From contig JBAXGN010000029.1 in NCBI GenBank assembly GCA_037139415.1, forward strand, positions 1-50,289: a stretch of 50,289 nucleotides of DNA, given 5' to 3'. Shown here one piece after another: positions 3,857-50,289 of this stretch. Position 1 is the stretch's first letter. Each line of letters begins with the position of its first letter. The stretch comes from Verrucomicrobiota bacterium. GTDB lineage: Bacteria; Verrucomicrobiota; Verrucomicrobiia; Limisphaerales; Fontisphaeraceae. The position numbers were made by a program, and so were the translations under genes. The notes beneath the pieces are model-generated. The model saw only the letters and a program-made list of their open reading frames with translations, ran no database searches and was not told the origin of the DNA.

Positions 3857-3948
3857 ATTGCTGTCAGCTATGATTCGCCCGAACCACCTCTGGGTGTGCG
3901 CTCGGGGCAATTCCATGCGGCGTCAATAAATGCAGGACGTCGTTTGCT

Positions 3949-5544
3949 TTACACTTCCGTGGTGGTGAAGGGGCGGCCGTGGCTGGCGCAGATCATCTGG
4001 GCAGCGTAACGGGCGGAGAGCGCGGCGTAGGGCAGGCCACCGCCTGGTTCGACCCAGTGGCCCGCCATGTAAAACTCTTTTAGTCCAGGCAGCGTGCGGG
4101 GGGGCAGCCAGCCCACGACGCGCGGCGTCGGCATCCAACCCTGGCAACTGCCCAACCAGTTGCCGGTGTGGCGCACAAAGGTGGCGGGGGTGGCGACATC
4201 GGAAACTTCCACCTGCTGGGCCAGGCCGGGGAAACGAATATCGAGTGCGGCGACGATCTGTTGTAGCAGCGATTGCTTTTCCCGCTGATAGGCGGCGAAG
4301 TTGTCTTTTCGCAGGGCGGTCCAGAATTCGCACCGGCAGCGCAGGCCAATGGTTATCACCGTGCAGCCTTCCGGGCACAGTCCGGCGTCGGCAGTGAACA
4401 CGGAAATTGGGAGCCGGGCATGGTGCGTTTGATCGTCCACTCGCAGCGGTTGGAACAGGGGAAGGCTGAGCGTATGGGGCGCGTCTGGAAAGGTTTGCTG
4501 AATCCCCAGGGAGACCTGAATATGGCCCGGAAACACATCCCCCGCTGCGTAGGCATCACTGGTCTTGCGATCCACAAACCGGCCCTCAAGCATCTGGTAA
4601 ATCGTCGTGCGCCCGTCCGCGCAGGAAATCACCGTGGCGGCGGGAATGACCGTTCCATCCGCGCAACGTACGCCCGTGGCCCGGCCATGCTCGACCGTCA
4701 CTGAAACCACGCGGGTGTTGCACCGGATGTGCCCGCCGAGTCGGACATAGCGGTCGGCAATTGCCTGGATGAAAGCCCGCGACCCGCCGGTGACATAGCC
4801 GGCGTTTTTCCTGGAACGCCACGCCAACAACATCACCAGCACCATGGCCGAGGTGCGTCCGTCGCCGGCAATGGCCATCAGGGCTTGGCGCAGGAACTCG
4901 TTTTGATACGTTGCCAGGTAGGCGTCCACCGTCCGGTTCTTCCAGGCCAGGACCACTGGTACTGTCGGCAGGTAGCGGAGTCCCAGCTTGATTTTTTCAA
5001 ACGGGGTCATTAACTCCAACGGTTTTTCCATGGGCGGTTCGAGGCTCGCACATCGTCGCGCCGCCCTTAGGAGCGTATCAATGCGCTTGGTGTCTTCGGG
5101 GGCGATGCGTTTGAACTCGCGTGCCAGTTCGTCCAGGCTGGCAGGCACGGAAACGGCTTTGCCGTTCTGCCCCTCGATGCGCATGAAGCTGTCGTGATTG
5201 ATCACGGTGCGTCCGGCAATGGCGCCCAATTCCCGCCAAATCCGGTGAAAGGCTGAATCGGGATCAGTGCCGACCAACCAGCGCAGGCAACCATCAAACG
5301 TGTACGCACCGCGATCCCAGGCGGCGCACAGGCCGCCCGGCACAAGGTCAGCCTCGATAATCTCGCTCTGGAACCCGTTCATTTGCAGGTAACAGCCGCA
5401 GGCCAGCCCCGCTAGTCCTCCGCCAATGATGAGTTTACGGTCGGAGCCCTGGCCCGTGACCTCCGGTTTCCCGGCGGCGTTCAGACCCTGGTCGCTGTGG
5501 TTGCTTCCGCGACCCTCTGCAAAATTATTGTTGGACACAGTCAA
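3949..5544 (-). CDS. phytoene desaturase/carotenoid isomerase-like FAD oxidoreductase
   Basis: A 531-residue flavoprotein of the phytoene desaturase (CrtI)/CrtISO/retinol-saturase-like family. A dinucleotide-binding motif GGGLAGLACG lies at residues 41-50, followed by the adenine-ribose-binding acid in EIIEADLVPGG. The C-terminal end (HWVEPGGGLPYAALSARYAA) matches the family flavin-binding motif. Such enzymes desaturate or isomerise polyenes, or act on retinoid-like substrates. No other carotenoid gene lies nearby, so the substrate is open. The first 36 residues are not conserved-looking, so the true start may be a little downstream. It is divergent from a GbsR/MarR regulator, with an inverted repeat between them that could control both. 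Confidence 0.82.
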   Translation of the reverse strand: MTVSNNNFAEGRGSNHSDQGLNAAGKPEVTGQGSDRKLIIGGGLAGLACGCYLQMNGFQSEIIEADLVPGGLCAAWDRGAYTFDGCLRWLVGTDPDSAFHRIWRELGAIAGRTVINHDSFMRIEGQNGKAVSVPASLDELAREFKRIAPEDTKRIDTLLRAARRCASLEPPMEKPLELMTPFEKIKLGLRYLPTVPVVLAWKNRTVDAYLATYQNEFLRQALMAIAGDGRTSAMVLVMLLAWRSRKNAGYVTGGSRAFIQAIADRYVRLGGHIRCNTRVVSVTVEHGRATGVRCADGTVIPAATVISCADGRTTIYQMLEGRFVDRKTSDAYAAGDVFPGHIQVSLGIQQTFPDAPHTLSLPLFQPLRVDDQTHHARLPISVFTADAGLCPEGCTVITIGLRCRCEFWTALRKDNFAAYQREKQSLLQQIVAALDIRFPGLAQQVEVSDVATPATFVRHTGNWLGSCQGWMPTPRVVGWLPPRTLPGLKEFYMAGHWVEPGGGLPYAALSARYAAQMICASHGRPFTTTEV

Positions 5545-5680
5545 TGGCCGGTGAATTTGCGTTCTTTCTGGTGTGATGTCAACTGGCGGGCGCTTGAATT
5601 CGCACTTTTGCGCTTAGGCACCAGGTTTTTGAATCTCGCCGGACCAATAAATACTTGCCGGACGCTCAGTTATACGGCAA

Positions 5681-5698
5681 TTTCTGTACTGACAGAAA
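5681..5698. promoter_or_regulatory. inverted repeat, candidate operator
   Basis: TTTCTGT, a 4-base spacer ACTG, then ACAGAAA: a perfect 7-bp inverted repeat 11 bp before the regulator start at 5709 and in the divergent promoter region of the oxidoreductase at 5544. The placement suits autoregulation by the GbsR/MarR protein. No binding data are implied. Confidence 0.5.
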
Positions 5699-5708
5699 TT
5701 ACAGAACT

Positions 5709-6260
5709 ATGCAGACATTAAATTCGGTGCAACAAAAGTTCATCCTTCACTGGGGGGAAATGGGCACCCGGTGGGGCATCAACCGCACGGTGGCCCAGAT
5801 TCACGCCCTGCTCTTTATCTCGCCCCAGCCGCTGCCGGCGGAAGTGATCGCCGATACCCTGGCCGTGGCCCGCTCCAATGTCAGCACCAGCCTCAAGGAA
5901 TTGCAGGCTTGGGGCGTTATCCGCCTGGTGCATGTCATGGGTGACAAACGCGATCACTTTGAATCCATGAAGGATGTCTGGGAGATGTTTCGCGCGGTGT
6001 TGGACGAGCGTAAAAAGCGCGAATTGGACCCGACCCTCACGTTGTTGCGTGATTGCCTGATTGACGCCGAACAAAACAAGGTCGCCGACCCATATACCGA
6101 GGAACGGCTGCGGGAGTTGACCGAGTTTTTTGAAACCACCAATGCTTGGTATGCCCAAGTGCGGCTCTGGCCGCGCGGTTCGCTTGGCAAATTGGTGAAA
6201 CTGGGGGATAAGGCGCTGAGGATCTTGGGGATTGGCGGAAAAGAACGGACCATGAAGTGA
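5709..6260 (+). CDS. GbsR/MarR family transcriptional regulator
   Basis: A 183-residue winged-helix regulator. The N-terminal half (GINRTVAQIHALLFISPQ, then ADTLAVARSNVSTSLKELQA) fits the DNA-binding helix-turn-helix of the GbsR/MarR group, whose founder GbsR is a choline-sensing repressor. The C-terminal half is helical and probably the dimer or sensor part. Starting at ATG 5709 removes an unconserved N-terminal stretch that an upstream start at 5655 would add. It reads away from the phytoene-desaturase-like gene, and local control of that gene is an inference from this arrangement. The ligand is unknown. Confidence 0.85.
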   Translation: MQTLNSVQQKFILHWGEMGTRWGINRTVAQIHALLFISPQPLPAEVIADTLAVARSNVSTSLKELQAWGVIRLVHVMGDKRDHFESMKDVWEMFRAVLDERKKRELDPTLTLLRDCLIDAEQNKVADPYTEERLRELTEFFETTNAWYAQVRLWPRGSLGKLVKLGDKALRILGIGGKERTMK

Positions 6261-6864
6261 AAATAACGTTGTCCCGCATGATGAGTTGCTGAAATCCGAA
6301 GTGCGAACGCCGAAAACCAGAATGCCATACCCGGCCAGCTTTGAAGCTCCCATCTTGAATTATTGAACCATGAATTCTCAGATTCCACCTGCGTGCCAAT
6401 CACCAAACCATGCTCCCCCCTGCGCTTCCCCGCCGACCCAGACTGCCACCGGGCTATGGCAGAAATTGAAATCCGCTTTCGCTGGCGAACCGCCGGTTGC
6501 CCGTTCGTTCTCCCCGACCGCCGTTCGGCATAAACATCACCGGTGCATTCCGTTTTTTGATATTCCGTAACGCTCAGCAACTTAAACGGTGAAGGTTACA
6601 AGCCGTTTGCCGGAGCTGCCGGATGGCAGCACGCGAGCGGCACTGAATGATTTGTTGATACGCATCAGTCTGGCTCAGGGTGGCGGTGCTTGGTATAAAT
6701 AACTAGATTAATTCGCCAAACCAACTTGCTCCCGGTTTCTATTGGTTGGTCATTTTTTGCCCGAAAATATTTCCGGTGCAGCCTTCGATCTTTGACCGGC
6801 CAGCGTGTGGAAGTCCCGCCTCGGTAATTGATGGTGGAACCGAGTAGTAACCCACCGTACGGAG
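6261..6864. other. gene-poor interval with a possible ORF remnant
   Basis: About 600 bp between converging genes with no convincing gene. A 37-codon frame, 6589-6702 on the plus strand (GTG start right after an in-frame stop), encodes TSRLPELPDGSTRAALNDLL followed by a short tail. It looks protein-like and may be a gene fragment. A second frame at 6370-6570 is proline/serine-rich with no recognisable pattern. No clear terminator for either flanking gene was seen. Confidence 0.4.
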
Positions 6865-9573
6865 TTATGGGGTGGCGATGGGTTTTGGTCCGGCTGGGGT
6901 GAGGGTTACGGGGCCTAGCAACCCGGAGTCGGTCAATGGCCAGTTGGAGGCGTCAAAGGGTTTATAATCGAGGTTGACGAAATTGATGTCATGAAAGTTC
7001 TGCCATTTGACCTTGCGCCGATCCAGATCGCGAATGCGATTGGCGGAGACGTTGACCACTTCAATTTCCAATTGGTTGCCCGTCGGTTTCAATGGTCCGA
7101 CTGAGACTTGGAACGGCGGGATGAACAAGGTGCCCAGGTCGCGTCCATTCAGGTACACGCGCGCGCTCTGGCAAACCCGGCCAAGATCCAGAATCCACTG
7201 TGAGCTGCTGGACGGCGGGGCATCGAAAGAGAGCGTGTACCGCGCAGTGCCCGCGAACCGTTGCGCGTTGGTACCGCCCAGTTCCGTCCAGGATGCCAGG
7301 TGATCGGTCTGGAAGGGCGCGGGTAATTCCGGCCCCCCTTGCAAGAAGGTGACCTGCCAGGAACCCGTCAGCGTGGTTTGGGGCGCGAGCGTTTTTTGAT
7401 AGGGCCAAGGTTCGCCCGTCACCCCGGTATTGAAGGTGCGCAGCACCATGGAGGCGCCTGGCGTCAGGTCGAGGTAAACTGCAATTCCGCCACGCGCCTG
7501 CTTGTGCAATGCCCCCAGCCCGGTCTGGCCGTTCATGGGGTCCATCAGCACAACTGAGACGGCGGAGTCGTTCAACGGTACCCAACCCGTTACCGGTTGT
7601 TCCGAACGATTCGCGATGAAGTAGTGGCGTCCGCCTTCATGCGTGCGCCGGATGAAATACAGGCCCGCATGATCTACCAGAGATTCGCGCCCAACTTGGG
7701 CAGCAGCCAACGCGGCTTCCAAGTCGCCGCACACCACCCGGCCCTTGCCCACGATGGTTTGCGACACGCCGTCGCCGGACTTGCCCGGTTGCAGCCGGGC
7801 CAGCGTTTTATGCAGCGCCGCGCGCCGCGTCTCCAAGTTTCCCCAGCCAGGCACATCGGTCGGCAGTTGGCCTTCAAAGATAACCGTCGCCCCCGCTTCC
7901 GCCAGGGCCACCAATTGTTCAAACGTTGGCAGGTGCATGACCTGGCAGCGCGGCACCACCACCACGCGATACGCGGCACCGGCGGTCTTGAGGCGGCCCT
8001 CGGCCACCGTGGTTCCGGCCAACTGGCGGTCCGAGATATAATCAAAGGCGTACCCGCGATTCCAGAGATGCTCGGCCGCTTTGCCGAGGGGTTGCGCCTC
8101 GAACCAGTCACGCGCATGAACCGTCATGTTGAGCACCCGCCCGCCGGGAGTCTGCCAGTAGTCATAAATGGGCCAGTAGAGTAAAACATCATTGTCCGGG
8201 CGTCCGGCCTGCAAGATGGATTGGCAGCGGGCGGCATACGCATTCAACGCGGAAACATGTTGCCAGACGGAATTGCGCGGATTCATCTCGAACGCGGCAT
8301 AGAATACCCAGCCGGGCCACTCCGCCTCATCCGGCGAGTAGCAGGTGCCGTGATAAAAAATATGGTTAATGCCGCTGACGAACAGATCGTCCAACAGATA
8401 TTTCATATCCCCGAGCGTCTCGGTGAAATGTTCCTGGAGCCAGGTGCCGGTTTCATTGGCTACCAACGCTCGCCCCGCCACATGGGCGGAGGAGGAGGCA
8501 AACTTGGAAATCAGCTTATTGCGATCCTTAAAAAACATCTCGGATTCCGGGATGTCCGCCAGGGCGTACAGATCGAGCAGGTTGCCTGGGGAACCATGCG
8601 CCTCGTTGCGCGTGAGGAAACCGTTCTTTTTCGCCCACGCCGTCCAAAGCGGCATGGTTTCCTCCGCCATGAGATCGGAAATGGTCTCGCGATAATCACA
8701 TTTTATCCGGGCGGTGTGCTCGTTCGTGGCCTTGCCAAACAGCGCGGGCAACTCTTGCTCCAGCCGGTACCCGCGACGCTGCGCGAACTTGGTAAACAAA
8801 TCCGGCGCCCAATCGGACCGGTATTCATACGAATCATGGTACACGGCGCGCGGTTTGGGGCCTTGGTAACCGGCAAATGCCTCATCAAACCAGCGCAGAT
8901 AGTTTTTCATTCCGTCGGCGTAAAACAGATTCAGCATGTGGCCTTCGCCGCCGGGCGCGGCCCGTTTGACCTTCTGGCCGGAAGGCTTTTGAGACACCGC
9001 ATAAACCGTCCATGGCCCGCCCTCCGCCACCCAGGCGACCATGCCATCGACACCGATTTTCCCGGTGAGTTCAAGCGCCTTGCCATCCGGGGAAAACGCC
9101 ATTAAAGCCTGAATGGACTTCCGGTCAAATTTTTCAAGCAGCCGCGCCCCCGGCTTGACCTCGGTGACATTCACAACGACGGCGGCGTTGGCTTCCTGAG
9201 CCGTGACTCGTGGCCCGCCAAAGCACCAGCCGGTGCCCGTGGTCATATCCACATTCAAGTCCAGCCGCTGCCCCTCGGTTACGGTATGGCGCAGCATGGC
9301 CATCCATTGGGGGCTGAGATAGGGAATGTACTTCTCTTCCCAACCTTTGGCACCATAGATGGGGATAATATGGACCGCGCCCATGCCGGCGTCGTGATAC
9401 CGTTGCATCTCGCGGCTGAGGTTATTGGTATCCACGGCACTGGCCATCCACCACCAGTAACCGCCTGGGCGGCATTCACGGGTGATTGGTGGCCAGGCGA
9501 AGGAATCGGCGCTGGCCGCAAATGTTCCCAGCCAGGCCATGGCCATTCCGAGATGACACAAACGCAATTTCAT
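6865..9573 (-). CDS. secreted glycoside hydrolase, GH106-like (alpha-L-rhamnosidase type)
   Basis: A protein of about 902 residues with an N-terminal signal peptide (hydrophobic stretch LCHLGMAMAWLGTFAASA). The mature start PPITRECRPGGYWWWMASAV, then HDAGMGAVHIIPIYG and TTGTGWCFGGP, is typical of the large glycosyl hydrolase group annotated as GH106/alpha-L-rhamnosidase-like, common in polysaccharide-degrading Verrucomicrobiota, Planctomycetota and Bacteroidota. The C-terminal part (WILDLGRVCQSARVYLNG, NQLEIEVVNVSANRIRD) is a galactose-binding-like beta-sandwich. It would act outside the cytoplasm on rhamnose-bearing glycans, but the exact linkage is not readable. An upstream ATG at 9600 adds nine residues. 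The gene stands alone. Confidence 0.8.
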   Translation of the reverse strand: MKLRLCHLGMAMAWLGTFAASADSFAWPPITRECRPGGYWWWMASAVDTNNLSREMQRYHDAGMGAVHIIPIYGAKGWEEKYIPYLSPQWMAMLRHTVTEGQRLDLNVDMTTGTGWCFGGPRVTAQEANAAVVVNVTEVKPGARLLEKFDRKSIQALMAFSPDGKALELTGKIGVDGMVAWVAEGGPWTVYAVSQKPSGQKVKRAAPGGEGHMLNLFYADGMKNYLRWFDEAFAGYQGPKPRAVYHDSYEYRSDWAPDLFTKFAQRRGYRLEQELPALFGKATNEHTARIKCDYRETISDLMAEETMPLWTAWAKKNGFLTRNEAHGSPGNLLDLYALADIPESEMFFKDRNKLISKFASSSAHVAGRALVANETGTWLQEHFTETLGDMKYLLDDLFVSGINHIFYHGTCYSPDEAEWPGWVFYAAFEMNPRNSVWQHVSALNAYAARCQSILQAGRPDNDVLLYWPIYDYWQTPGGRVLNMTVHARDWFEAQPLGKAAEHLWNRGYAFDYISDRQLAGTTVAEGRLKTAGAAYRVVVVPRCQVMHLPTFEQLVALAEAGATVIFEGQLPTDVPGWGNLETRRAALHKTLARLQPGKSGDGVSQTIVGKGRVVCGDLEAALAAAQVGRESLVDHAGLYFIRRTHEGGRHYFIANRSEQPVTGWVPLNDSAVSVVLMDPMNGQTGLGALHKQARGGIAVYLDLTPGASMVLRTFNTGVTGEPWPYQKTLAPQTTLTGSWQVTFLQGGPELPAPFQTDHLASWTELGGTNAQRFAGTARYTLSFDAPPSSSSQWILDLGRVCQSARVYLNGRDLGTLFIPPFQVSVGPLKPTGNQLEIEVVNVSANRIRDLDRRKVKWQNFHDINFVNLDYKPFDASNWPLTDSGLLGPVTLTPAGPKPIATP

Positions 9574-41186: not shown

Positions 41187-41538
41187 GAACGGACCTCCTC
41201 TCCCCAAGGGAGAGTAGCACTGTTGGGTATTGCACAACGGCTGATTGTGAAGAAGTACGAACAGATGCCGAAGAGAAGTTCATATACTAAATAGTTGGAA
41301 GATAACGGGTTGTGAATTAACACTGACATATTCTGTGATATCCGAAACACCGGACTCATCTTTACCAACATTGGTTCACGGTAATTGTTCACTGGGTTTT
41401 GCACAAAGCGTTCTGACAACTACTTTCGTTGGGAGCCATTCATGGTTTGATCTAGTTACTTGTCCTATTCTATTAAGACAATGAAGTACTCATGTCTCGT
41501 AAAGCACGCCAAGTTGGTTTTTACGGAAGTCCGTAATG
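41187..41538. other. intergenic region, compositional boundary
   Basis: A 7-bp inverted repeat CTCTCCC/GGGAGAG at 41198-41214 follows the kinase but has no T-run, so it is a weak terminator at best. From here rightwards the DNA is visibly richer in A and T than the preceding 41 kb. No gene was seen in the rest of the gap. Confidence 0.6.
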
Positions 41539-42294: not shown

Positions 42295-42481
42295 TAATAG
42301 TGGGCAGATGACGATTACGATTCTCCGTTAGGTCCTAGTGCTGTTTTGACATTCCATTTAAAAACCGAGAATTCCTCCGAATATCATAATCTGCACACAC
42401 TATCTGCGACGTTACGAACTTGCCGTTCTCGACAAGTTCCAACGTCTTTGGTTACGCATCCTCAGTGATTATTCTGTACAC

Positions 42482-42691
42482 ATGAAAAACACGAACAAAA
42501 TAGCACGCCGATATTGTCCCTTCCGCAGGTTGATCAAACAATGGTTCCTGAGTTTGATTAAGCGCAACAATAGTGGTTGTTCCAATGAGTTCAACCGAAT
42601 CATGAAAAAGCTCCAGGACGTAGAGGACATGATTGAGGTTATTGCACGTCAAGTCGCCAAATGGGCCAAAGTAGAATCGGATGAGTCATAA
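42482..42691 (+). CDS. small basic hypothetical protein
   Basis: A 69-residue protein with a basic N-terminal half (KIARRYCPFRRLIKQW) and a coiled-coil-like end (MKKLQDVEDMIEVIARQVAK). Family unknown. A 36-bp imperfect hairpin lies just upstream at 42409-42445 (ACGTT and GAACTTG arms against CAAGTTC and AACGT). It is convergent with the large ATPase gene, ending 25 bp before that gene's stop. Coding is plausible but not proved. Confidence 0.4.
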   Translation: MKNTNKIARRYCPFRRLIKQWFLSLIKRNNSGCSNEFNRIMKKLQDVEDMIEVIARQVAKWAKVESDES

Positions 42692-42715
42692 ATTTTGACC
42701 AGCCCCGACACAATT

Positions 42716-45172
42716 CTACACCGTTTTCTTTTTGAGGTTTAAATTCGTCTTACCACATTCACATCGTAACACCTCAGCACTTTCCCGATCAGGTGAGACG
42801 CGAAGAAATTCGGAACAGGTCGGACAGGTAAATCCCGAAAGAAGGGCGTGAAATACATTCACTACTGGCAAAAAGTCGTTCTTTGTGAAATTGGCCCACG
42901 CATTGAAATGAACAGCAGGGTTGATTTGCCATTGTTCAACTTGTGATGCAACGACAAGTTTGCTGAATTCGTCAGCGCGATTGCCAATGTCAGAGACAAT
43001 ATCTTGTTGTTTCCATGAATTCGCAACATCTTTTGCAGTGGTATAGAGTTTCCGCAAACGCCCAACCGCAGGCGGAAGCATTTCGCCAAGTTGATATTGG
43101 GCATCACCACGAAACTCTACCGGGGCACGCAACCGATGACATAATTCTGCTGAGGTGTATTCAAGAAAATGACGAAGCAATGCAGCGGCAGCCCTGACAT
43201 CATTTTTATTCAGGTAATCATGCATTTCCGTCCACACATCTCGATCATCCCATTGGGTTGGTCCTTGATCAACGTTCCACACTCTGAATTGAACCGCGCC
43301 TTGCCCGTTAATCAGCCCCTCGGTTTTCATATGCCTCATCCAAATCGGATCATGCGTTGTCATGATAAACTGAGTGTTGGGAAACTCCTTTTTCAATAGC
43401 GTGCATACTTCCCGCCTATGCCCCGTGTCAACCGACATGAGCACGTCATCAAGCACTGCAAATGTGAATTCCGATCCTTGGAGGTGACGCATTAATGCCA
43501 GGTACAAACAAAGTCCCATTCCATCTTGATGCCCTTCACTATGGTAGGCACCGGGCGGGAAAAAGCCTCGCCCATAAAAATCGACATCAAATCCGAGTTT
43601 TCCCATGGAGGGAATCAATCTTGCCGAAAAGTTCTTTTCGTCATCGTGATTGATGGCAGTGTAAAGAGCAGCAAAGTCCTTTTGGACTTCAGTGTAAAGT
43701 CCCGTAAGCACCTTGTCACTGGCTTCGACGTATTTATCAGATACCTGACGGGCGATTTGAGCCTGTGCCGTAGCGGACTTTTCCGCACGTTTGGCTTCGC
43801 GCCATACGTCGAGACGCTCCTGGGCGATGGCAAGAAACTCACGTGCCGCATCCTGTTTGGTCGGTTCTGGCAGAGCGGAAACGACTTTTTCAAAGTCACT
43901 AATGGCGCTGGTGACCGATGGTGGCACAGTAGCCATACGAGTGAGTATTGCCATCGTCTCAGTAAGCGGCAGCAAATTCGACAAAACCTTAATTGAGGTG
44001 CGACAAAAAGAACTGTAATCGTTGCATGCTTGAATTGCAATCGGAGGTTTCTGCAAATTCGCATACCTGACCAGGGTATCCATTGCGGCTTGCACCTTTC
44101 GCAAGGTCGCAATCAATGGTTCCATTTGTTTTTCAACATCTTTGCGTTTTTCGGACAAATCTTTTAGCTGATTAAGTTTTGCATGAGCACGCTTCCTTAA
44201 TAGTTCCTGGTCCCATTCGGCATCACAAAACGGACAAGTGTCATCTCCAATCAATGACAATCCTGTAGTAAAAAAATTCTCTCTAGTTACACCTGTTATA
44301 AAAGCAGGGTTCGCAGCCAGGGTTTCCAATTCACTGATGAGCTTACCAATTTGTGGTTGGGTGGACTGGTTAGAAATTTCATTGAGAGCTTCCCGAGCCG
44401 CTTGAAAATCCACCATCGCCTGTGCCTTCGGAATCAGTTGGGGCTTTGCTGTAGCAGGTGTCGCCATTCCATCCTTGAGGGAGGTGGTGGCTGTAAGTTC
44501 AAGTAATTCAGGGAGACCAAGGATTGCCCGCTGGGCATTGGTAATAAAAAGAATATTCTCCTTGTTAAATTCAGCGATAGAAAGCGCACGCAAAAGATTG
44601 TCCTGGGCTGTTTTGACTGGTTGAGAAATCATTTTAGACTGCTTCTCAGCACCATTTGCAATTTTCTGGAATATTGCCCTAACCTCCTCAATCTTATCAA
44701 GATGTAGCAACGCTTGTACTTCCTCGTTACGCTTTCCTGGGGTAGCCAGTACGTAGCGAATTAGCTCTCGCCGGGAAAGGACAATTTCAGGATGTGTTTC
44801 GACACCCTGGAGTATTTTGAGAACATCAGGATCATTCGGTGTTACTTTGGCCGTCCCTGGTGTTTTGGCTGTTCGTTCGATAACAACAGTTTTCTTGAGA
44901 CTTGGAATTGTTAGTTTAATGGTGACAATTGCTTTTGCCGGATCATTTCGTTTATCAACATGTGGAGCATGTTGTTTTAGGGTAATTTCCCCACGACCTT
45001 CACCAGCCAATCGGGAAATATTCCCGGTAAGCACAAATTCCAGAGCATCTACGACACCGCTCTTTCCGGTGCCATTCGGACCACATATGGCAAAATTCTT
45101 GCCCTTAAAGTCCAAGGTGAGATTACGGATGCCCCGGAACTCCTGAATTGTCATTGAATCAATGTAAATCAT
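42716..45172 (-). CDS. SMC/RecF-like ATPase with CPFC motif and C-terminal zinc ribbon
   Basis: An 818-residue ABC-type ATPase of the RecF/SMC/Rad50 group. Walker A GPNGTGKS lies at residues 31-38. The middle (about 170-500) is long and helical with a CPFC motif at 313-316, at the place where a Rad50-like zinc hook would pair two molecules. The signature-like segment SEGHQDGMGLC is at about 545-555, Walker B FAVLDDVLMSVD at 571-582, and the H-loop TTHD at 605-608. About 200 further residues follow, ending in a zinc ribbon CPTC (783-786) with CEC (804-806). Such proteins act on DNA ends or sense foreign DNA, and many belong to defence systems. It is the last gene of the XRE operon, 12 bp after the 59-residue gene. 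Ribosome site GAGGAA overlaps that gene's stop. Confidence 0.83.
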   Translation of the reverse strand: MIYIDSMTIQEFRGIRNLTLDFKGKNFAICGPNGTGKSGVVDALEFVLTGNISRLAGEGRGEITLKQHAPHVDKRNDPAKAIVTIKLTIPSLKKTVVIERTAKTPGTAKVTPNDPDVLKILQGVETHPEIVLSRRELIRYVLATPGKRNEEVQALLHLDKIEEVRAIFQKIANGAEKQSKMISQPVKTAQDNLLRALSIAEFNKENILFITNAQRAILGLPELLELTATTSLKDGMATPATAKPQLIPKAQAMVDFQAAREALNEISNQSTQPQIGKLISELETLAANPAFITGVTRENFFTTGLSLIGDDTCPFCDAEWDQELLRKRAHAKLNQLKDLSEKRKDVEKQMEPLIATLRKVQAAMDTLVRYANLQKPPIAIQACNDYSSFCRTSIKVLSNLLPLTETMAILTRMATVPPSVTSAISDFEKVVSALPEPTKQDAAREFLAIAQERLDVWREAKRAEKSATAQAQIARQVSDKYVEASDKVLTGLYTEVQKDFAALYTAINHDDEKNFSARLIPSMGKLGFDVDFYGRGFFPPGAYHSEGHQDGMGLCLYLALMRHLQGSEFTFAVLDDVLMSVDTGHRREVCTLLKKEFPNTQFIMTTHDPIWMRHMKTEGLINGQGAVQFRVWNVDQGPTQWDDRDVWTEMHDYLNKNDVRAAAALLRHFLEYTSAELCHRLRAPVEFRGDAQYQLGEMLPPAVGRLRKLYTTAKDVANSWKQQDIVSDIGNRADEFSKLVVASQVEQWQINPAVHFNAWANFTKNDFLPVVNVFHALLSGFTCPTCSEFLRVSPDRESAEVLRCECGKTNLNLKKKTV

Positions 45173-45184
45173 GGCATTGATTCC

Positions 45185-45364
45185 TCAATCAAAGATTGCT
45201 GCTTTCAAGGCAACCTCAGTAAGCACCTGCTTTTCTAACAGTGCTTTTCTGAGCCGTTCCACCAATTCAGCAGAAGCCTTGCCTTCCGTTAAGTTAGCGA
45301 GAAATGTTTTGTAAACCAGCTCTGGGACATCGACATTTGCTGGTGTCGCTTGTTGTGTTGACAT
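45185..45364 (-). CDS. 59-residue helical protein of the XRE operon
   Basis: A short gene: ATG at 45364, TGA stop at 45185-45187. It encodes MSTQQATPANVDVPELVYKT followed by helical segments rich in Leu, Ala and Lys (NLTEGKASAELVERLRKALL, EVALKAAIFD). It sits 12 bp before the ATPase and its stop overlaps the ribosome site of that gene, so the two are likely to be co-translated. The role is unknown; a small adaptor or regulatory partner of the ATPase is a fair guess. It reads as a true gene because its frame is intact, its start lies in a sensible place and the spacing is operon-like. Confidence 0.72.
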   Translation of the reverse strand: MSTQQATPANVDVPELVYKTFLANLTEGKASAELVERLRKALLEKQVLTEVALKAAIFD

Positions 45365-45433
45365 GCATAAAGATTAGCTCACTGAATCATTTTTGTCGAG
45401 CAATAAACCCGTGTGCTTTTTGTTTGAATGGAT

Positions 45434-45943
45434 TCAAATGGTCTTTTTTATCCTTAACGCCACCACCAGTGCCACAGCATCAAAAATGTCCATTTGGTAA
45501 TGTTCACTCATCCATGGTTTTCGTTTCGGCGGCAGAAATGAACCGAGTTCATCTGGAAACCGTTTGGCAATGATTTCAGCCAAAGCATGTTTTGTCCCAT
45601 GAGCGTTACCAAAATAAACGCGACGTAATTTTTCAGCGGACAATAATACAACTCTGATGTTTCGAGCCGTGGCCACCTTAACGATTTGCTGACTGAGTTT
45701 TTGTATTCGAGGATATCGACGAGAGTTCTTAGCCGAAGTATCTGGCAAAACCAATACCTCCGGTTGGTAATGAGCAATCAGCTTTTCCACTTTTGCAAGC
45801 GATTGGGCGTTTTTGTCCCCTTTGACAGTTTTGACGCCCCAATCAACCAGCGTTTCCTGTCCTTCTAAAACAGCAAAGCCGACGCCCCTGGCGGTGGGTG
45901 CGATGCCCAATATTCGGAAGTGTTTCGGGTGGATATGATTCAT
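45434..45943 (-). CDS. RuvC-fold protein, first catalytic Asp replaced by Ala
   Basis: A 169-residue RNase H/RuvC-fold protein. The first strand, FRILGIAPTARGVGFAVLEG, aligns with the LGIDPG start of Holliday-junction resolvase RuvC, but Ala15 stands where the metal-binding Asp should be. The third strand EVLVLPDTS keeps an acidic residue (Asp68), and the last helix FDAVALVVAL has Asp152 and Asp155 spaced as the final RuvC pair. One of four ligands is thus missing: the protein may bind DNA or junctions without cutting, or use a different first ligand. It is 2 bp after the XRE gene and 69 bp before the 59-residue gene. Confidence 0.72.
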   Translation of the reverse strand: MNHIHPKHFRILGIAPTARGVGFAVLEGQETLVDWGVKTVKGDKNAQSLAKVEKLIAHYQPEVLVLPDTSAKNSRRYPRIQKLSQQIVKVATARNIRVVLLSAEKLRRVYFGNAHGTKHALAEIIAKRFPDELGSFLPPKRKPWMSEHYQMDIFDAVALVVALRIKKTI

Positions 45944-45945
45944 GT

Positions 45946-46281
45946 TTAATTTTTAGATTTATTGGCGATAGTAGTAAGGAGTTGACGACGGATAACTGTT
46001 CGACGATTGGATTTATTTCGATCCATTTTGTGCGAGAGGACTTTGGCTCGTGCAGCAACTTTCTGTTGAACTTGTTGATGGAGACCCACAAAGAGATCGC
46101 TGGTTGGTTTCTGAAAGACCACTTCATACGCCAAGGCTGTCGCTAGATTTGGTACACGAACAAACCGTTCATAGCGACATACCTTGTCTCCATTTCGTGT
46201 TCCCAAAAGGAAAGCCACGTCCTTTTGTGAGAGCGCCAGGCGTTTACGGTTTGATCGTAAATAATTGGATAGTTGTGCCAT
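45946..46281 (-). CDS. XRE-family helix-turn-helix regulator
   Basis: A 111-residue protein. Residues about 5-60 form a lambda-repressor-like helix-turn-helix (NRKRLALSQKDVAFLLGTRN, then VCRYERFVRVPNLATALAYE), followed by a basic tail (KVLSHKMDRNKSNRRTVIRR). It is the first gene of a four-gene minus-strand operon. Its DNA target is unknown, but a candidate operator with 7-bp arms (46335-46354) lies 54 bp upstream of its ATG, within a leader that also contains a terminator and a GNRA hairpin. It probably regulates its own operon, which is the usual arrangement of such mobile-element regulators. Confidence 0.8.
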   Translation of the reverse strand: MAQLSNYLRSNRKRLALSQKDVAFLLGTRNGDKVCRYERFVRVPNLATALAYEVVFQKPTSDLFVGLHQQVQQKVAARAKVLSHKMDRNKSNRRTVIRRQLLTTIANKSKN

Positions 46282-46334
46282 GGGAGTGAATACGAACTCA
46301 TTGTGAATTCAAAGTTAGAGTATCGGATTGTTAA

Positions 46335-46354
46335 AATTACCAAAGGAGGTAATT
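46335..46354. promoter_or_regulatory. inverted repeat, candidate XRE operator
   Basis: AATTACC, spacer AAAGGA, GGTAATT: 7-bp perfect arms. It is located in the transcribed leader of the XRE operon, 54 bp before the ATG. On the plus strand the spacer and right arm read AAAGGAGGT, a perfect extended Shine-Dalgarno sequence; on the minus strand they give its complement. Confidence 0.55.
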
Positions 46355-46372
46355 CTTGCCGTTTCCGGCAAG
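46355..46372 (-). other. leader RNA hairpin with GNRA tetraloop
   Basis: On the minus strand CTTGCCG, loop GAAA, CGGCAAG: a perfect 7-bp stem closed by a GNRA tetraloop, a common stable RNA fold. It lies between the early terminator and the candidate operator in the leader of the XRE operon. Confidence 0.6.
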
Positions 46373-46378
46373 TTTTAT

Positions 46379-46406
46379 AAAAAAACACCGAGTTTGATGC
46401 TCGGTG
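46379..46406 (-). terminator. rho-independent terminator in the leader of the XRE operon
   Basis: A perfect 7-bp stem, CACCGAG (46386-46392) with CTCGGTG (46400-46406), followed on the minus strand by seven T (complement of 46379-46385). It starts about 5 bp after the predicted transcription start of the promoter at 46418-46446. Confidence 0.8.
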
Positions 46407-46417
46407 GTCAGGAGTAT

Positions 46418-46446
46418 ATTATAATATAAAACCGTGTTTTTGTCAA
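46418..46446 (-). promoter_or_regulatory. consensus sigma-70 promoter of the XRE operon
   Basis: On the minus strand TTGACA (complement of 46441-46446), a 17-bp spacer, and TATAAT (complement of 46418-46423). Both hexamers match the consensus exactly and the spacing is ideal. Transcription would begin near 46411 and run into the terminator at 46406. Confidence 0.83.
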
Positions 46447-46531
46447 TTCGTCCACCGCAAACATAAATATGCCGTAATTGGCAAAACTCCCCTCCTTTCA
46501 GCATCACCCTTGCACCAGTAAAGTGGCTGGC

Positions 46532-46708
46532 ATGACAACACCACAACAATTGAGCCGCGAGGCTATCGAGGAATTCAGAAAAATTTACCAGGAGGAATTC
46601 GGAGAGCGTCTTTCCGATGATGAAGTCCAGGAAATCGCCATGCGCTTGCTGCGATTCTTTGGAATTTTGAATGACTCCCTTCATACGGAAAACTCCCGGA
46701 AACAATGA
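46532..46708 (+). CDS. small companion protein of the serine recombinase
   Basis: A 58-residue acidic, helical protein (REAIEEFRKIYQEEFGERLS, then DEVQEIAMRLLRFFGIL). I recall very similar small proteins immediately upstream of large serine recombinases in Candidate Phyla Radiation and other genomes; this is from memory and not checked here. The function is unknown; it could be a recombinase cofactor or directionality factor. The ATG at 46532 is preferred over a TTG at 46478. It is followed by a 9-bp hairpin and then the recombinase start, 87 bp downstream, so the two probably share control. Confidence 0.7.
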   Translation: MTTPQQLSREAIEEFRKIYQEEFGERLSDDEVQEIAMRLLRFFGILNDSLHTENSRKQ

Positions 46709-46740
46709 TCCGTTTGACGGGAAATTTTTGTCGGGTTAGC

Positions 46741-46766
46741 ATGACCTTGTAACAGCTCAAGGTCAT
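46741..46766 (+). other. hairpin before the recombinase start
   Basis: ATGACCTTG (46741-46749) and CAAGGTCAT (46758-46766) form a perfect 9-bp inverted repeat with an 8-base loop, 29 bp before the recombinase ATG. No strong T-run follows (TTATCATTC). It may be an attenuator, an operator or a recombinase-related site. Confidence 0.55.
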
Positions 46767-46795
46767 TTATCATTCTCAATTCATCATTCATCACC

Positions 46796-48637
46796 ATGCC
46801 AGGATATTTTATCTACTGCCGCAAATCATCCGAAGCCGAAGATCGGCAGGTTCTTTCGATTGAATCTCAAATCCGAGAACTGGAGCAGTTGGCTGCGAAA
46901 CTAAATTTGCAAGTGACTGAAGTGTTGACCGAATCCAAATCTGCCAAAGATCCAGGTCGTCCGGTATTTAATAACATGATGCAGCGCCTTTACCGTGGTG
47001 AAGCCGCCGGCATCATTTGTTGGAAGCTTGATCGTCTTGCGCGTAACCCTGTAGATGGTGGTTCCATTATTTGGGCGATAAAGCAGCATGGCATTAAGGT
47101 CATGACCCAGGCCCAAAGCTTTGCCAGAGAGGATGATAATATCATTCTCATGTATATCGAATTCGGCATGGCACAAAAGTATGTCGATGATTTGAGCAAG
47201 AACGTAAAACGTGGGCTCAAAACCAAAATTGAAAACGGGTGGCATCCATGCCTGGCACCAATTGGATATTTAAACCACACGAACAAGATCACTGGAGAAA
47301 ACACTCTGATTAATGATCCTGAAAGATTCCCGTTGGTTCGGCGAATGTGGGACTTAATGTTGACCGGGCTATATACCCCACCAAAGATTCTTGAAATCGC
47401 TAATCAAAAGTGGGGGTTCCGAACAAGGCAAACACGCACGAAAGGCAACAAACCAATCAGTCGAAGCACAATCTACCAGATTTTCACCAAACCTTTCTAT
47501 TATGGTTGGTTTGAATACCCCGCTGGCAGTAGCCAGTGGTATCAAGGAAAACACGAACCAATAATCACCGAAGCCGAATATGACCGGGTGCAAACCTTGC
47601 TTGGACGCCATGGTAATCCGCGCCCTCAATCGCATCATGATTTTGCCTTCACTGGGCAAATTCGCTGTGGGGAATGCAATCAGATGGTAACTGCCGAAGA
47701 AAAGCATCAGCTCATATGCAGTCACTGTCGATTCAAGTTCGCATATCGTTCGCGCAATACCTGCCCGCGTTGCGCAACTCCAATTGAAAAGATGAAGAAT
47801 CCGTTGTTTCTCCGATACGTGTATTATCATTGTTCCAAAAGTAAACGACCACTGTGTGCGCAGAAATGTATCAGTGGTCAGGAGCTTGAAAAGCAGATTG
47901 GGACGTATCTTGCACGGATCAGTATTTCGGTAAAATTCAAGGATTGGGCGATTGGTTTTGTACGTGAATATTACGCAAATGAAAGTACAGCGCGCAACGA
48001 AATCATTCAGGCCAACGAGAAAGCATATCAGGATTGTATGCGACGTATTGATAACCTGGTTAAACTACAAACGTCTCCAGACAATGCAAACGGTGCCTTA
48101 TTATCCAACCAGGAATACGGTCAGCAGCGATTTGCACTGTTAAAGGAAAAGGCCGCCTTGGAGGAATTGATGCGAGATGCCGGGCACCGAGTTGAGCAGG
48201 CATTGAAACTCACGGAAAAATTCTTTGAGTTCGCATGTATCGCCCAAACTTGTTTTGCGAAAGGCGATACCATGACCAAAAAGGTGATTCTTGATGCCAT
48301 TGGATCGAACCTGGTTTTAAAGGATAAAAAACTCATTATTGAAGCCAAAAAACCGTTCTTCATTCTAGAAAAATCCAATTTCGGTGAAGCATTGGAAATT
48401 GAATCAATCGAACCTAAAAATACCCGCCTGCCATATATACAAAAAGAGGCTTTCGCCTCTCCTCGTCCCATTATGCTCCCTAAACTACACGACGTTAGAA
48501 CATTACGACATAGAAATGAATATATCGTCAACTCAATACACCACTTCTTTAGAAGTGTCTGTAATTCCCCTTCATTTAAATCGTCTGACTGGGTGTTTCT
48601 AATACATGAGGATAATATAGATGATTCAAAGAACTAA
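46796..48637 (+). CDS. large serine site-specific recombinase
   Basis: A 613-residue large serine recombinase. The resolvase domain starts GYFIYCRKSSEAEDRQVLSI with nucleophile Ser11 after Arg9, followed by ESKSAKDPGRPVFNNMMQRL and GIICWKLDRLARNP. Next come the recombinase domain (RFPLVRRMWDLM) and a zinc-ribbon region with many cysteines (CGECNQ, CSHCRF, CPRCAT, YYHCSK), then a coiled-coil and helical tail. Such enzymes integrate and excise mobile elements at att sites. The protein closely resembles, from memory, recombinases common in Candidate Phyla Radiation genomes. Its 3' end contains a hairpin that works as a terminator on the other strand (48441-48460). The stop overlaps a convergent gene fragment by 4 bp. 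Confidence 0.93.
   Translation: MPGYFIYCRKSSEAEDRQVLSIESQIRELEQLAAKLNLQVTEVLTESKSAKDPGRPVFNNMMQRLYRGEAAGIICWKLDRLARNPVDGGSIIWAIKQHGIKVMTQAQSFAREDDNIILMYIEFGMAQKYVDDLSKNVKRGLKTKIENGWHPCLAPIGYLNHTNKITGENTLINDPERFPLVRRMWDLMLTGLYTPPKILEIANQKWGFRTRQTRTKGNKPISRSTIYQIFTKPFYYGWFEYPAGSSQWYQGKHEPIITEAEYDRVQTLLGRHGNPRPQSHHDFAFTGQIRCGECNQMVTAEEKHQLICSHCRFKFAYRSRNTCPRCATPIEKMKNPLFLRYVYYHCSKSKRPLCAQKCISGQELEKQIGTYLARISISVKFKDWAIGFVREYYANESTARNEIIQANEKAYQDCMRRIDNLVKLQTSPDNANGALLSNQEYGQQRFALLKEKAALEELMRDAGHRVEQALKLTEKFFEFACIAQTCFAKGDTMTKKVILDAIGSNLVLKDKKLIIEAKKPFFILEKSNFGEALEIESIEPKNTRLPYIQKEAFASPRPIMLPKLHDVRTLRHRNEYIVNSIHHFFRSVCNSPSFKSSDWVFLIHEDNIDDSKN
48441..48460 (-). terminator. minus-strand terminator inside the recombinase gene
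   Basis: AGAGGC, loop GAAA, GCCTCT on the minus strand, followed by TTTTG. A 6-bp stem with a GNRA loop and a short U-run. It could end transcripts coming leftward from the RHS genes; there is no other minus-strand gene close upstream except the fragment at 48634. Confidence 0.55.
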
Positions 48638-48834
48638 CGAAGACGCACAGATTTGTCAGAAGCGACAAACCTGTAAAGACTGCTTGTATTCGACATAATC
48701 CCATGCTGGGAAATGAAAGCATGAGCTTGTTGACGAATCCACGGCTGAGAAGTGCGACATAGATATTTACACAACCCTTGTTGCGCCACGTAAATAGTTG
48801 GAATTTCGCCTGCTATTGGTTGGCGTCTGGTCAA
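48634..48834 (-). pseudogene. probable gene fragment, 5' end missing
   Basis: The frame reads TRRQPIAGEIPTIYVAQQGL, then CKYLCRTSQPWIRQQAHAF and IMSNTSSLYRFVASDKSVR, and stops at 48634. The frame extends upstream to an in-frame TAA near 48868 with no good start; TTG at 48834 is the nearest. It looks like a real protein whose N-terminal part has been lost, perhaps a relic of the element boundary. I do not recognise the family. Its stop overlaps the end of the recombinase gene. Confidence 0.4.
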
Positions 48835-48860: not shown

Positions 48861-49325
48861 TTATAGCTTATGTAGTTTGACGATTTTAATAATATCATCA
48901 TAAAGGCCGTTATCATCTTTTTTGTTCGGGCCGTAAGATTGAATCATTATACTATTGCCATTACTAACAAAAACGAATCGTATTACATTTCCCCATTCAT
49001 CAATAATATCCCGATTATCGTTCGTCTCGTATCGTCCTGGTACATAATATTGCCTGTTATTTGGATTGTTCGTTTTTTCTGTGCCTGTTATTTTCAATGA
49101 CAGTTTGTTGAGATCAAGCCCGTTTGTGTTTGTTTTTTCAGATAAATATTTTTCTATAGCTATTCCTAGTGAATCTACTTGGAATCGAGTCGCTATCCCT
49201 CTGTGAAAATGCATTGTATAATATTCAAGTGTAAACACTACACTTATCGCCACTAAGCAGCCATAAAAAATGTGCCTTGTGTTTACCAAGCGCCCCATCG
49301 TTGATTTGTTTTTACAAATTTTCAT
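48861..49325 (-). CDS. GspG-like membrane protein, possible RHS immunity partner
   Basis: A 154-residue protein with one transmembrane helix near the N-terminus (FYGCLVAISVVFTLEYYTMH). The C-terminal part DEWGNVIRFVFVSNG, IQSYGPNKKDDNGLYDD matches the typical end of type II secretion pseudopilin GspG (DxWGN, SxGPDG), but the prepilin cleavage motif is not convincing. Its ATG overlaps the RHS stop codon (TAATG), so the two are translationally coupled. In RHS and related polymorphic toxin loci the gene directly after the toxin usually encodes the immunity protein, so that is the favoured guess. A secretion accessory or an unrelated pseudopilin cannot be excluded. Confidence 0.65.
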   Translation of the reverse strand: MKICKNKSTMGRLVNTRHIFYGCLVAISVVFTLEYYTMHFHRGIATRFQVDSLGIAIEKYLSEKTNTNGLDLNKLSLKITGTEKTNNPNNRQYYVPGRYETNDNRDIIDEWGNVIRFVFVSNGNSIMIQSYGPNKKDDNGLYDDIIKIVKLHKL

Positions 49326-50289
49326 TACCGATCATCAAATTCGGATCCATTACCAGTTTCACTCACGGTTCCTTCGATAGTGACTGGATCATTCCACCAT
49401 ATATTTAAAAAGCTAACGTCAACGAAAAACCCAGTTACCCAGCCTTTTGAAGACACATTAAGGTTCCAGTAAGTTTTAGTAGGGTCGGATAAATAAGTTT
49501 TTTCAGGCAAGCCGCTAAACTTTCCGACAGTGCTACACCCGTAAAGTACCATATTCCGTATTTTGTATGGTGAATATCTGCCAGGGCGTACAGTGTCATT
49601 ATTGTTCTGTTTACCTCCTGGTGCTAGCACTTGAGGATATCCATCAAGACCATGTCCGCCATACATATATATATAAATTCCATCTGTACGTAAATGGTCC
49701 TTGATTTGAAGCGATGTTACATTATCATACAGTGCTACATAATAGCCTTCGTCTTCCAATGACGCTGCCGCCAAGCGCAAAGAATCCTGCAAGCGCACAA
49801 GAAGAGACGAGAATTCCATGCTGTAAGGAACAAACTTGTTTCTTCCAAGATCGACAAATACTAAATTGGGAACTGTATAAGTCGTGTTAGGAGTTAATGA
49901 TGTAATAGATTTCCCATTAATATCGCGGAGCCACCCCTTCACGCCAAGTGCATCTGTCGCATCTAATTGAAGTGTTTCAGCTAGGCTTGATATGGTATCG
50001 CCCGTTTCGGAACACACCTTGGCACGTGGTTGGTTGGATTTGCGTTCAACCTTAGTCCAAAGACCTAAATAATCATTTTGCGATATAGGGTTGTTTTTAA
50101 CAAACCCATATAAATTCATGCCGCCCTTGATTCCAATCGGATCCCTACTCATCCATTTCTCCATTTCCGGCTCATAAAACCGATACCCGTAATAATACCG
50201 TTTGGTTTCCCAATCGTAATACTTGGTCGAAAACAGGAAATTAAACTCCCTGGCCATCGGCCCCGTCGCCCGAATGACCACCCCAAACG
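49325..50289 (-). CDS. RHS-repeat protein, 3' part, with LysM-like and CHAT/caspase-like segments
   Basis: The C-terminal part of a larger gene that continues past the right edge (the frame is open with no start). It begins with the RHS core (FSTKYYDWETKRYYYGYRFY, then KWMSRDPIGIKGG and LYGFVKNNPI), the usual boundary before a variable toxin tip. Residues then include VCSETGDTISSLAETLQL, like a LysM repeat, and a 180-residue tip. In the tip, IYIYMYGGHGLDGY (His about 210 from the first visible Met) and MVLYGCSTVG (Cys about 249) resemble the His-Cys dyad of CHAT/caspase-like peptidases. This assignment rests on motif shape only. The stop overlaps the start of the downstream small membrane protein. 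Confidence 0.8.
   Translation of the reverse strand, partial: FGVVIRATGPMAREFNFLFSTKYYDWETKRYYYGYRFYEPEMEKWMSRDPIGIKGGMNLYGFVKNNPISQNDYLGLWTKVERKSNQPRAKVCSETGDTISSLAETLQLDATDALGVKGWLRDINGKSITSLTPNTTYTVPNLVFVDLGRNKFVPYSMEFSSLLVRLQDSLRLAAASLEDEGYYVALYDNVTSLQIKDHLRTDGIYIYMYGGHGLDGYPQVLAPGGKQNNNDTVRPGRYSPYKIRNMVLYGCSTVGKFSGLPEKTYLSDPTKTYWNLNVSSKGWVTGFFVDVSFLNIWWNDPVTIEGTVSETGNGSEFDDR

Follow-up and report, generated by a model that had tools for sequence, protein, structure and literature searches.

A proposed serine-recombinase element carrying a coupled Rad50-like ATPase gene pair in a Verrucomicrobiota genome

We analysed a stretch of 50,289 nucleotides from a Verrucomicrobiota bacterium of the family Fontisphaeraceae (contig JBAXGN010000029.1 of assembly GCA_037139415.1), which as a whole is called the window. 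Four minus-strand genes follow one another in it: a regulator of the XRE type, a RuvC-fold protein, an open reading frame (ORF) of 59 residues and a Rad50/SMC-like ATPase. The gaps between them are 2, 69 and 12 bp, and the ORF coordinates bear out this same-strand arrangement, which had been described in an earlier sequence-only reading. Homologues of all four genes exist elsewhere, and therefore all four are real genes. A short ORF and a large serine recombinase gene lie next to them on the opposite strand.

42716-45172, minus strand: ATPase gene, 818 residues, Rad50/SMC-like
45185-45364, minus strand: P59, the 59-residue partner gene, described by the P59 family profile
45434-45943, minus strand: RuvC-fold gene, 169 residues, catalytic D changed to A (15) and E to P (67)
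45946-46281, minus strand: XRE-type helix-turn-helix (HTH) gene, 111 residues, with homologues beside the RuvC-fold gene elsewhere
46532-46708, plus strand: ORF of 58 residues from ATG (76 residues from the TTG at 46478), upstream of the recombinase and conserved in elements
46796-48637, plus strand: large serine recombinase, 613 residues, with Resolvase and Recombinase domains

Two gene pairs at one locus

The RuvC-fold protein was searched for in 146 genomes of the same order and matched in 14, the own genome included; the good matches are 42-65% identical and many of the others are fragments. An XRE homologue stands beside the RuvC gene in 9 of the 19 loci fetched around the matches in other genomes, and 5 of these 9 (6 if the window is counted) further contain the small ORF together with a facing recombinase of 60-73% identity. 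The other fetched loci are contig ends, broken copies or, as judged by eye, ordinary RuvC (L044, L045), and the matches in genomes G021 and G101 also resemble ordinary RuvC. Neither the ATPase nor P59 has a match in any of the 19 loci. The recombinase (E ≤ 1e-60) was found at 10 places in 8 of the 146 genomes, with RuvC adjoining it at 6 of the 10, and 7 of the 8 genomes also have RuvC-family matches (Fisher p = 1e-7; 146 genomes, own included). In a sample of 387 genomes of the phylum, the RuvC-fold protein is present in the own genome and gives one weak match in another (2/387). Moreover, four Bradyrhizobium plasmid records match it at 37% with an XRE gene alongside; neither recombinase nor ATPase is listed near these regions, in a gene table that is incomplete.

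The gene content that follows RuvC differs among genomes. At locus L034 (genome G023, contig C17) a CRISPR-Cas locus begins about 86 bp after RuvC (coordinates 5236-9275, minus strand, and 3403-4767); it comprises Cas9d (1050 residues, 1253 bits, cut-off 375), Cas1 and an array of 21 repeats, and the XRE-RuvC pair there is adjoined by a divergent, distant recombinase (26% identity). The same element family may carry CRISPR-Cas. In two copies of genome G076, RuvC is followed by one or two small genes and then by a very long ORF matching RHS, and in G125 ORFs of at least 90 residues are absent for about 240 bp after RuvC. We therefore consider the XRE and RuvC-fold genes the core and P59 and the ATPase the cargo.

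P59 and the ATPase are a separate conserved pair, tightly coupled. A tblastn search (E ≤ 1e-3) of a set with one genome per species (84,980 species) gave 246 ATPase relatives; the best 80 of the 246, which are 38-63% identical and were the ones analysed, come from Verrucomicrobia, Acidobacteria, Omnitrophota, Spirochaetes, Nitrospira, Bacteroidetes, Patescibacteria, Proteobacteria and others. In 92 of 97 loci, spread over many phyla, a P59 profile match stands immediately before the ATPase, the seeds of the profile being counted among the 92 (one seed, L166, was taken in the wrong frame); the 97 loci include at least one duplicate (L140 is the L073 record), and L119 gave no ATPase start. In 77 of the 92 the match overlaps the ATPase by 4 or 1 bases at the profile's start. 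The remaining 5 loci have an annotated ORF of 58-79 residues directly before the ATPase, and no further P59 profile match below E = 0.05 occurs in the 97 loci.

The ATPase is also found on plasmids: 37 records have a relative, the match spanning 80% or more of the ATPase in 24, and 12 of the 37 are typed conjugative. The long matches listed are 21-50% identical and come mostly from Alphaproteobacteria, also from haloarchaea and Hymenobacter. An ORF of 53-79 residues overlaps the ATPase start in all 16 annotated plasmid regions that were opened, a seventeenth record being unannotated. Closer to the window the distribution is patchy, with matches to the ATPase query in 4 of the 146 genomes of the order (the three outside the own genome are weak) and in 2 of the 387 of the phylum sample (one besides the own). 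Single-sequence queries with the ATPase and with the RuvC-fold protein, which detect close relatives only, found none among viral contigs, and the phage matches are two records, both of Brochothrix phage NF5, over 16% of the query. Among the open-access papers searched, none was listed that describes the P59-ATPase pair or the XRE-RuvC core in its title or opening. In Halorubrum, an SMC gene between two small genes, which may or may not belong to this family, is reported to respond to virus (PMC10544981).

The sequence-only reading had presented the four genes as one set. A single functional system, in which XRE would regulate and the RuvC-fold protein would cooperate with the ATPase, is suggested by the shared strand, the short gaps and one locus from Asticcacaulis (L159) with both pairs and a serine recombinase on one contig, about 7 kb apart, where the XRE-like ORF before the RuvC-fold gene was read by eye; but this is the only one of the 97 ATPase loci with a RuvC-fold gene, the 19 RuvC loci hold neither ATPase nor P59, and in G023 the same position is held by the CRISPR-Cas locus, so that the co-occurrence counts largely refute such a system, which we regard as very improbable, and the four-gene operon was rejected as a unit. 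All four genes are nearly never together, whereas each pair recurs by itself, and we are highly confident that the locus holds two separate units. Since XRE and RuvC recur without the ATPase pair, and the ATPase pair without RuvC, the locus is described as an element core plus cargo.

The proposed element and its core proteins

The Resolvase (E = 7e-22) and Recombinase (E = 2.8e-10) domains of a large serine recombinase element are both present at the locus. This recombinase and an RHS locus had both been read beside the four genes, in DNA described as AT-rich and accessory, and these descriptions held: domain matches were obtained to both, the end of an RHS core adjoins the element (49325-50281; TIGR03696, E = 1.2e-18), and G+C is 44.8% in 42420-48668 compared with 58.2% in positions 1-41186 of the window. 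We propose that these genes make up an element of about 6.2 kb, moved by the recombinase, with XRE, the RuvC-fold gene, the 58-residue ORF and the recombinase as core and with P59 and the ATPase as cargo. Its proposed ends are marked by an imperfect palindrome of 33 bp that recurs in elements, and a leader region lies between the two gene groups.

48636-48668, plus strand: proposed right end, 33-bp site at the end of the recombinase gene, matrix score 34.4
42420-42452, minus strand: proposed left end, 33-bp imperfect palindrome, matrix score 25.5
46339-46371, plus strand: third 33-bp copy, between the XRE and recombinase genes, score 17.2, inside the null range
46285-46411, minus strand: hairpin leader before the XRE-RuvC genes, aligned in 7 elements
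46418-46446, minus strand: promoter-like TTGACA-17-TATAAT, sigma-70-like, ahead of the XRE gene, 12 of 12 consensus bases

The core motif of the site was first drawn from five copies, the right end of the window among them; the matrix omits the window copies and was made solely from those of other genomes, and its null, from 30 simulated windows, has a maximum of 18.2. Within the window it ranks the right copy first and the left copy second. The outward copies (42420 and 48668) enclose exactly six genes plus an ORF of 69 residues, and the element is proposed to span about 42420-48668. Two observations weigh against these ends: the left copy was not found in six other recombinase-bearing elements and is seen in the window only, and at L034 the site after the recombinase has the opposite orientation. 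The ends are for these reasons given as a proposal. No empty site was found, and no search for one was made in the two genomes of the same family, which have no match to the ATPase, the RuvC-fold protein or the recombinase.

The 33-bp site also occurs away from elements, at 21 places in 5 of 20 genomes, where a backward-control pattern gave 2. Of these 20 genomes, which were hand-chosen and not random, 11 have recombinase or RuvC-family matches, and the site occurs in 5 of them but in none of the other 9; the copies of the own genome are too diverged for the pattern. Similar sites lie about 1.2 kb apart between plasmid-type genes at L208 (14356-16801) and L210 (3000-4228), where the surrounding genes are, by eye, ArdC-like and primase-like. 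An integron-like cassette array is possible; the sites might, however, serve as operators or RNA hairpins and not in recombination.

In the window and six other elements, the leader region (46285-46446, minus strand) contains the promoter-like box, a terminator-like hairpin with stem bases that vary from copy to copy, a second hairpin (TTGCCG...CGGCAA) and a CCTCCTTTGG stretch. The box is a consensus match only, in a region that overall is without excess of such matches. The RNAalifold consensus retains only the TTGCCG...CGGCAA hairpin; the first hairpin is seen in single-sequence folds. An Rfam scan gave a single match, CopA at E = 0.12, under the gathering threshold and taken as chance.

The XRE assignment stood in part: the HTH aligns in six relatives at 28-60% identity, but the matches to HTH libraries are weak (E = 0.001 to 0.05) and every one is under its cut-off. 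For the second protein the RuvC fold stood, and the claim that one catalytic residue is altered did not. The Pfam RuvC match is under its cut-off (E = 0.0023); in a search of the family profile against the PDB, RuvC accounts for 7 of 12 matches and ranks first, with a best E of 3.3e-4, so by profile the 169-residue protein has a RuvC fold. An Ala of the family aligns to the first catalytic Asp of the RuvC structures, and in the window protein two catalytic positions are altered, Asp15 to Ala and Glu67 to Pro. Of 11 aligned relatives, 2 keep the first Asp, 6 the Glu and 10 the last Asp. Because the first Asp and the Glu are both lost, the window protein is probably not a nuclease, and binding is likelier than cleavage. 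It is quite unlikely that it is an active DNA-cutting nuclease with an altered metal site, for example a recombination factor or an immunity effector: the last Asp (155) persists in nearly all relatives, and those with the first Asp (L036, L037) have no recombinase match on their contig pieces, but the first Asp is gone in 9 of the 11 relatives and the Glu in 5. XRE and the degenerate RuvC protein might instead control or assist the recombinase, as a repressor plus a binder of DNA junctions, and we propose this helper role tentatively.

Among known systems, the recombinase recalls XisF and Ccr (NF041201 XisF, E = 1.8e-27; CcrB, E = 1.7e-17), with which the element also shares a small upstream ORF and variable cargo. 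Unlike those, its core has the pair of XRE and degenerate RuvC-fold genes, and the recombinase reaches 96.4 of 375 bits, far under the equivalog cut-offs.

Several further observations concern the surroundings of the elements. RHS core or RHS-like genes adjoin them in the window, L030, L031 and L038, the first three of which also have small genes at the RHS 3' ends; the tails of RHS genes may form a hot spot for insertion. A dispersed sequence at 41212, first suspected as an end for its distances of about 330 bp (G125) and 1600 bp (G046) from RuvC, was dropped as the left end, 9 of its 12 places being without element-protein matches in the fetched flanks. This repeat (41197-41330 in the window) opens in a CTCTCCC...GGGAGAG palindrome and occurs at 12 places in 8 of the 146 genomes. 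By eye, about half of its copies run into a degenerate HTH ORF, and near the copy at L060 (own genome, contig C6) an ORF opens with a SIR2-like GAGISY. Three places lie less than 5 kb from a RuvC element.

A hooked ATPase with an additional C-terminal domain

The ATPase is Rad50-like, with a coiled coil and a CxxC zinc hook. Its motifs are a Walker A (GPNGTGKS), the CPFC hook, SEGHQDGMG and LDDVLMSVD, and they are followed by a C-terminal domain with R667-x3-E671 and N751-x3-H755 and then by a terminal zinc ribbon. Two zinc-binding sites had been predicted from the sequence, and they correspond to C313/C316 in the hook and C783/C786/C804/C806 in the ribbon. The CPxC hook is kept in 81 of 81 aligned ATPases; R667, E671, N751, H755 and the four Cys are kept in all 79 that reach that far, L137 and L087, without the C-terminal domain, being the two gaps. 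The alignment of the 201-residue C-terminal domain, which covers 51 of the 81 sequences, has 16 invariants (F, W, G, P, W, L, R, E, W, W, N, H and four C), among which R, E and H are the sole charged or His residues. These three are also present, by eye, in the distant plasmid homologues L075, L080-L082 and L085. The model of the full ATPase (mean predicted local confidence, pLDDT, 79; predicted template modelling score, pTM, 0.52) matches the heads of Smc, Rad50 and Lamassu proteins; in the models R667 and E671 share one helix and H755 starts another.

RloC, which the sequence-only reading had mentioned, is the right analogy for the ATPase. A Rad50-like head, a coiled coil, a CxxC zinc hook and a C-terminal R-x3-E...H are found in RloC and PrrC also. 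In six proteins of the AAA_13/RloC type (one identified at 614 bits by PF13166, five by similarity to that one), R-x3-E is present in 6, N-x3-H in 5 and D-x3-H in 1. The catalytic triads R320, E324, H356 of PrrC and R692, E696, H737 of RloC, which have the same order as the invariant R, E and H of the window ATPase, are confirmed by mutation, and the zinc hook regulates the nuclease (PMC2610378). A survey of 2013 places the RloC/PrrC domain among the HEPN RNases and describes other ABC-HEPN fusions, some of them in mobile islands (PMC3710099), and DNA breaks are reported to switch RloC on (PMC3874168).

Several results weigh against an RNase domain of this kind. The E-H spacing is 84 residues in the window ATPase, against 29-41 for proteins of the RloC type. 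In place of the strict HEPN motif (Rx4-6H), which it lacks, the domain has N751-x3-H755, with the Arg at 667. The region of H755 is modelled with low confidence (pLDDT about 59 in the model of the domain and below 50 at 750-753 in that of the full protein). With the C-terminal domain, Foldseek found nothing significant (best E = 0.65), profile matches in the PDB are none better than E = 1.2, no Pfam family is above its cut-off, and hhalign against the RloC-type domains gave E = 0.018 at a probability of 2.5%. Structural alignment by VIA-align to HEPN toxins gave Z of 4.7-5.0, not distinct from unrelated helical bundles. Moreover, in the plasmid homologue L084 E and H persist while R and N are gone, and the sequence of L086 stops before the domain.

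The ATPase was not filed as RloC because AAA_13 (PF13166) is below its curated cut-off on it, at 27.9 bits against 36; the family exceeds the cut-off in 2 of 58 ATPase relatives. It also differs from RloC in the partner gene family of 53-79 residues upstream and in the extra C-terminal zinc ribbon.

A comparison with defence models in PADLOC gave partial matches only. Of the 112 families matching the ATPase, 25 were shown, and LmuB of Lamassu ranks highest (E = 3.3e-22, strongest over 153-616), several other ATPase models scoring nearly as high. Lamassu has a small ATPase, often with a zinc hook, and many systems have a small middle gene (PMC10586767). In contrast, the ATPase of the window has its own extra C-terminal domain, and its partner, of about 60 residues, is the first gene of the pair. 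PtuA of Septu and retrons and mad3 of MADS are related ATPases (E = 7.7e-17 and 7.5e-19), with NCBIfam scores far under the cut-offs (43.8 of 500 and 17.1 of 420 bits). The partners of Lamassu and Septu were not found, as neither LmuA nor the HNH nuclease PtuB has a match among the nine other window proteins scanned, nor was any HNH nuclease, reverse transcriptase or MADS partner present among the window proteins scanned.

Defence, repair or addiction

The sequence-only reading had noted that SMC-like ATPases with small partners are typical of several DNA-sensing defence systems, and this part of it is supported: the coupled pair turns up in unrelated genomes and also on plasmids, several times with defence genes as neighbours. 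On a Halorhabdus plasmid (L075) it is flanked by the pglX and pglZ genes of a BREX-5 operon, and its plasmid neighbours elsewhere include TIR and DarT-like genes, an N-6 methylase and a restriction endonuclease. In 42 of the 80 loci, those with long flanks, the 74 near proteins drew matches to 31 PADLOC families and the 78 far proteins to 8. Against a defence role, many transfer genes are also among the plasmid neighbours, and the enrichment is modest in distinct names, 12 among the 25 shown of the 31 near families versus 4 among the far; since several families can match one protein and proteins were not counted, it is a weak trend. We moderately favour P59 and the ATPase as a defence unit.

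We propose that this cargo would be a self-contained unit against phages or plasmids, resembling RloC. The hooked ATPase would sense DNA ends or abnormal DNA and turn on its C-terminal domain, which would act as a metal-independent RNase, probably on tRNA, and growth of the infected cell would be halted. P59, produced in step with the ATPase, would keep it inactive or relay the trigger. That the ATPase has such an RNase mechanism is suggested by analogy with RloC, and we hold it a little short of an even chance. The whole explanation, namely a serine-recombinase element core with a RloC-like P59-ATPase cargo, could in our view equally well prove right or wrong.

The pair could alternatively serve DNA repair or plasmid stability, the ATPase bridging or clamping DNA, the C-terminal domain binding a partner and P59 acting as a stoichiometric loader, with no suicide RNase. 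Some homologues of the ATPase are annotated with double-strand break repair, genes of the SOS type and for repair exonucleases lie near others, the 12 conjugative plasmid records and the transfer genes close by in several are compatible with it, and the ATPase folds like the heads of Rad50 and Smc. This role nevertheless appears rather unlikely: a metallophosphatase gene of the SbcCD/Mre11 type was not found among the ten window proteins scanned, and Metallophos is present in 2 of the 74 near-neighbour proteins of ATPase loci elsewhere; the patchy distribution in the order and the phylum speaks against it, as does the fact that, among the invariants of the extra domain, no charged or His residue other than R, E and H occurs. 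Equally doubtful is a toxin-antitoxin addiction module in which the ATPase would be the toxin and P59 the antitoxin, with upkeep of the carrying element as main role. The tight coupling and overlap of the genes and their carriage on elements and plasmids fit such a module, but P59 matched no antitoxin family in the library scans, and a Rad50-like head with a zinc hook would suggest a trigger beyond loss of the antitoxin.

The ATPase pair is common, yet it is far below the NCBIfam cut-offs for defence and has only partial PADLOC matches. It is conceivable, though we lean slightly away from it, that P59 and the ATPase are an undescribed two-component defence family, present in many phyla and in haloarchaea, which would combine a hooked Rad50-like sensor and a RloC-like RNase domain, restrained or armed by P59, and that they are carried by an unrecognised family of serine-recombinase elements, with a dead RuvC-fold protein in its core as recombination or regulatory factor, that also ships CRISPR-Cas9d. 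If the ATPase is a RloC-like RNase with a small controller, the pair would offer a two-gene handle on sensing of foreign or broken DNA and RNase release by zinc-hook ATPases. The family of elements, for its part, would illustrate how units of this kind, and CRISPR-Cas9d as well, pass between members of an order that are only distantly related.

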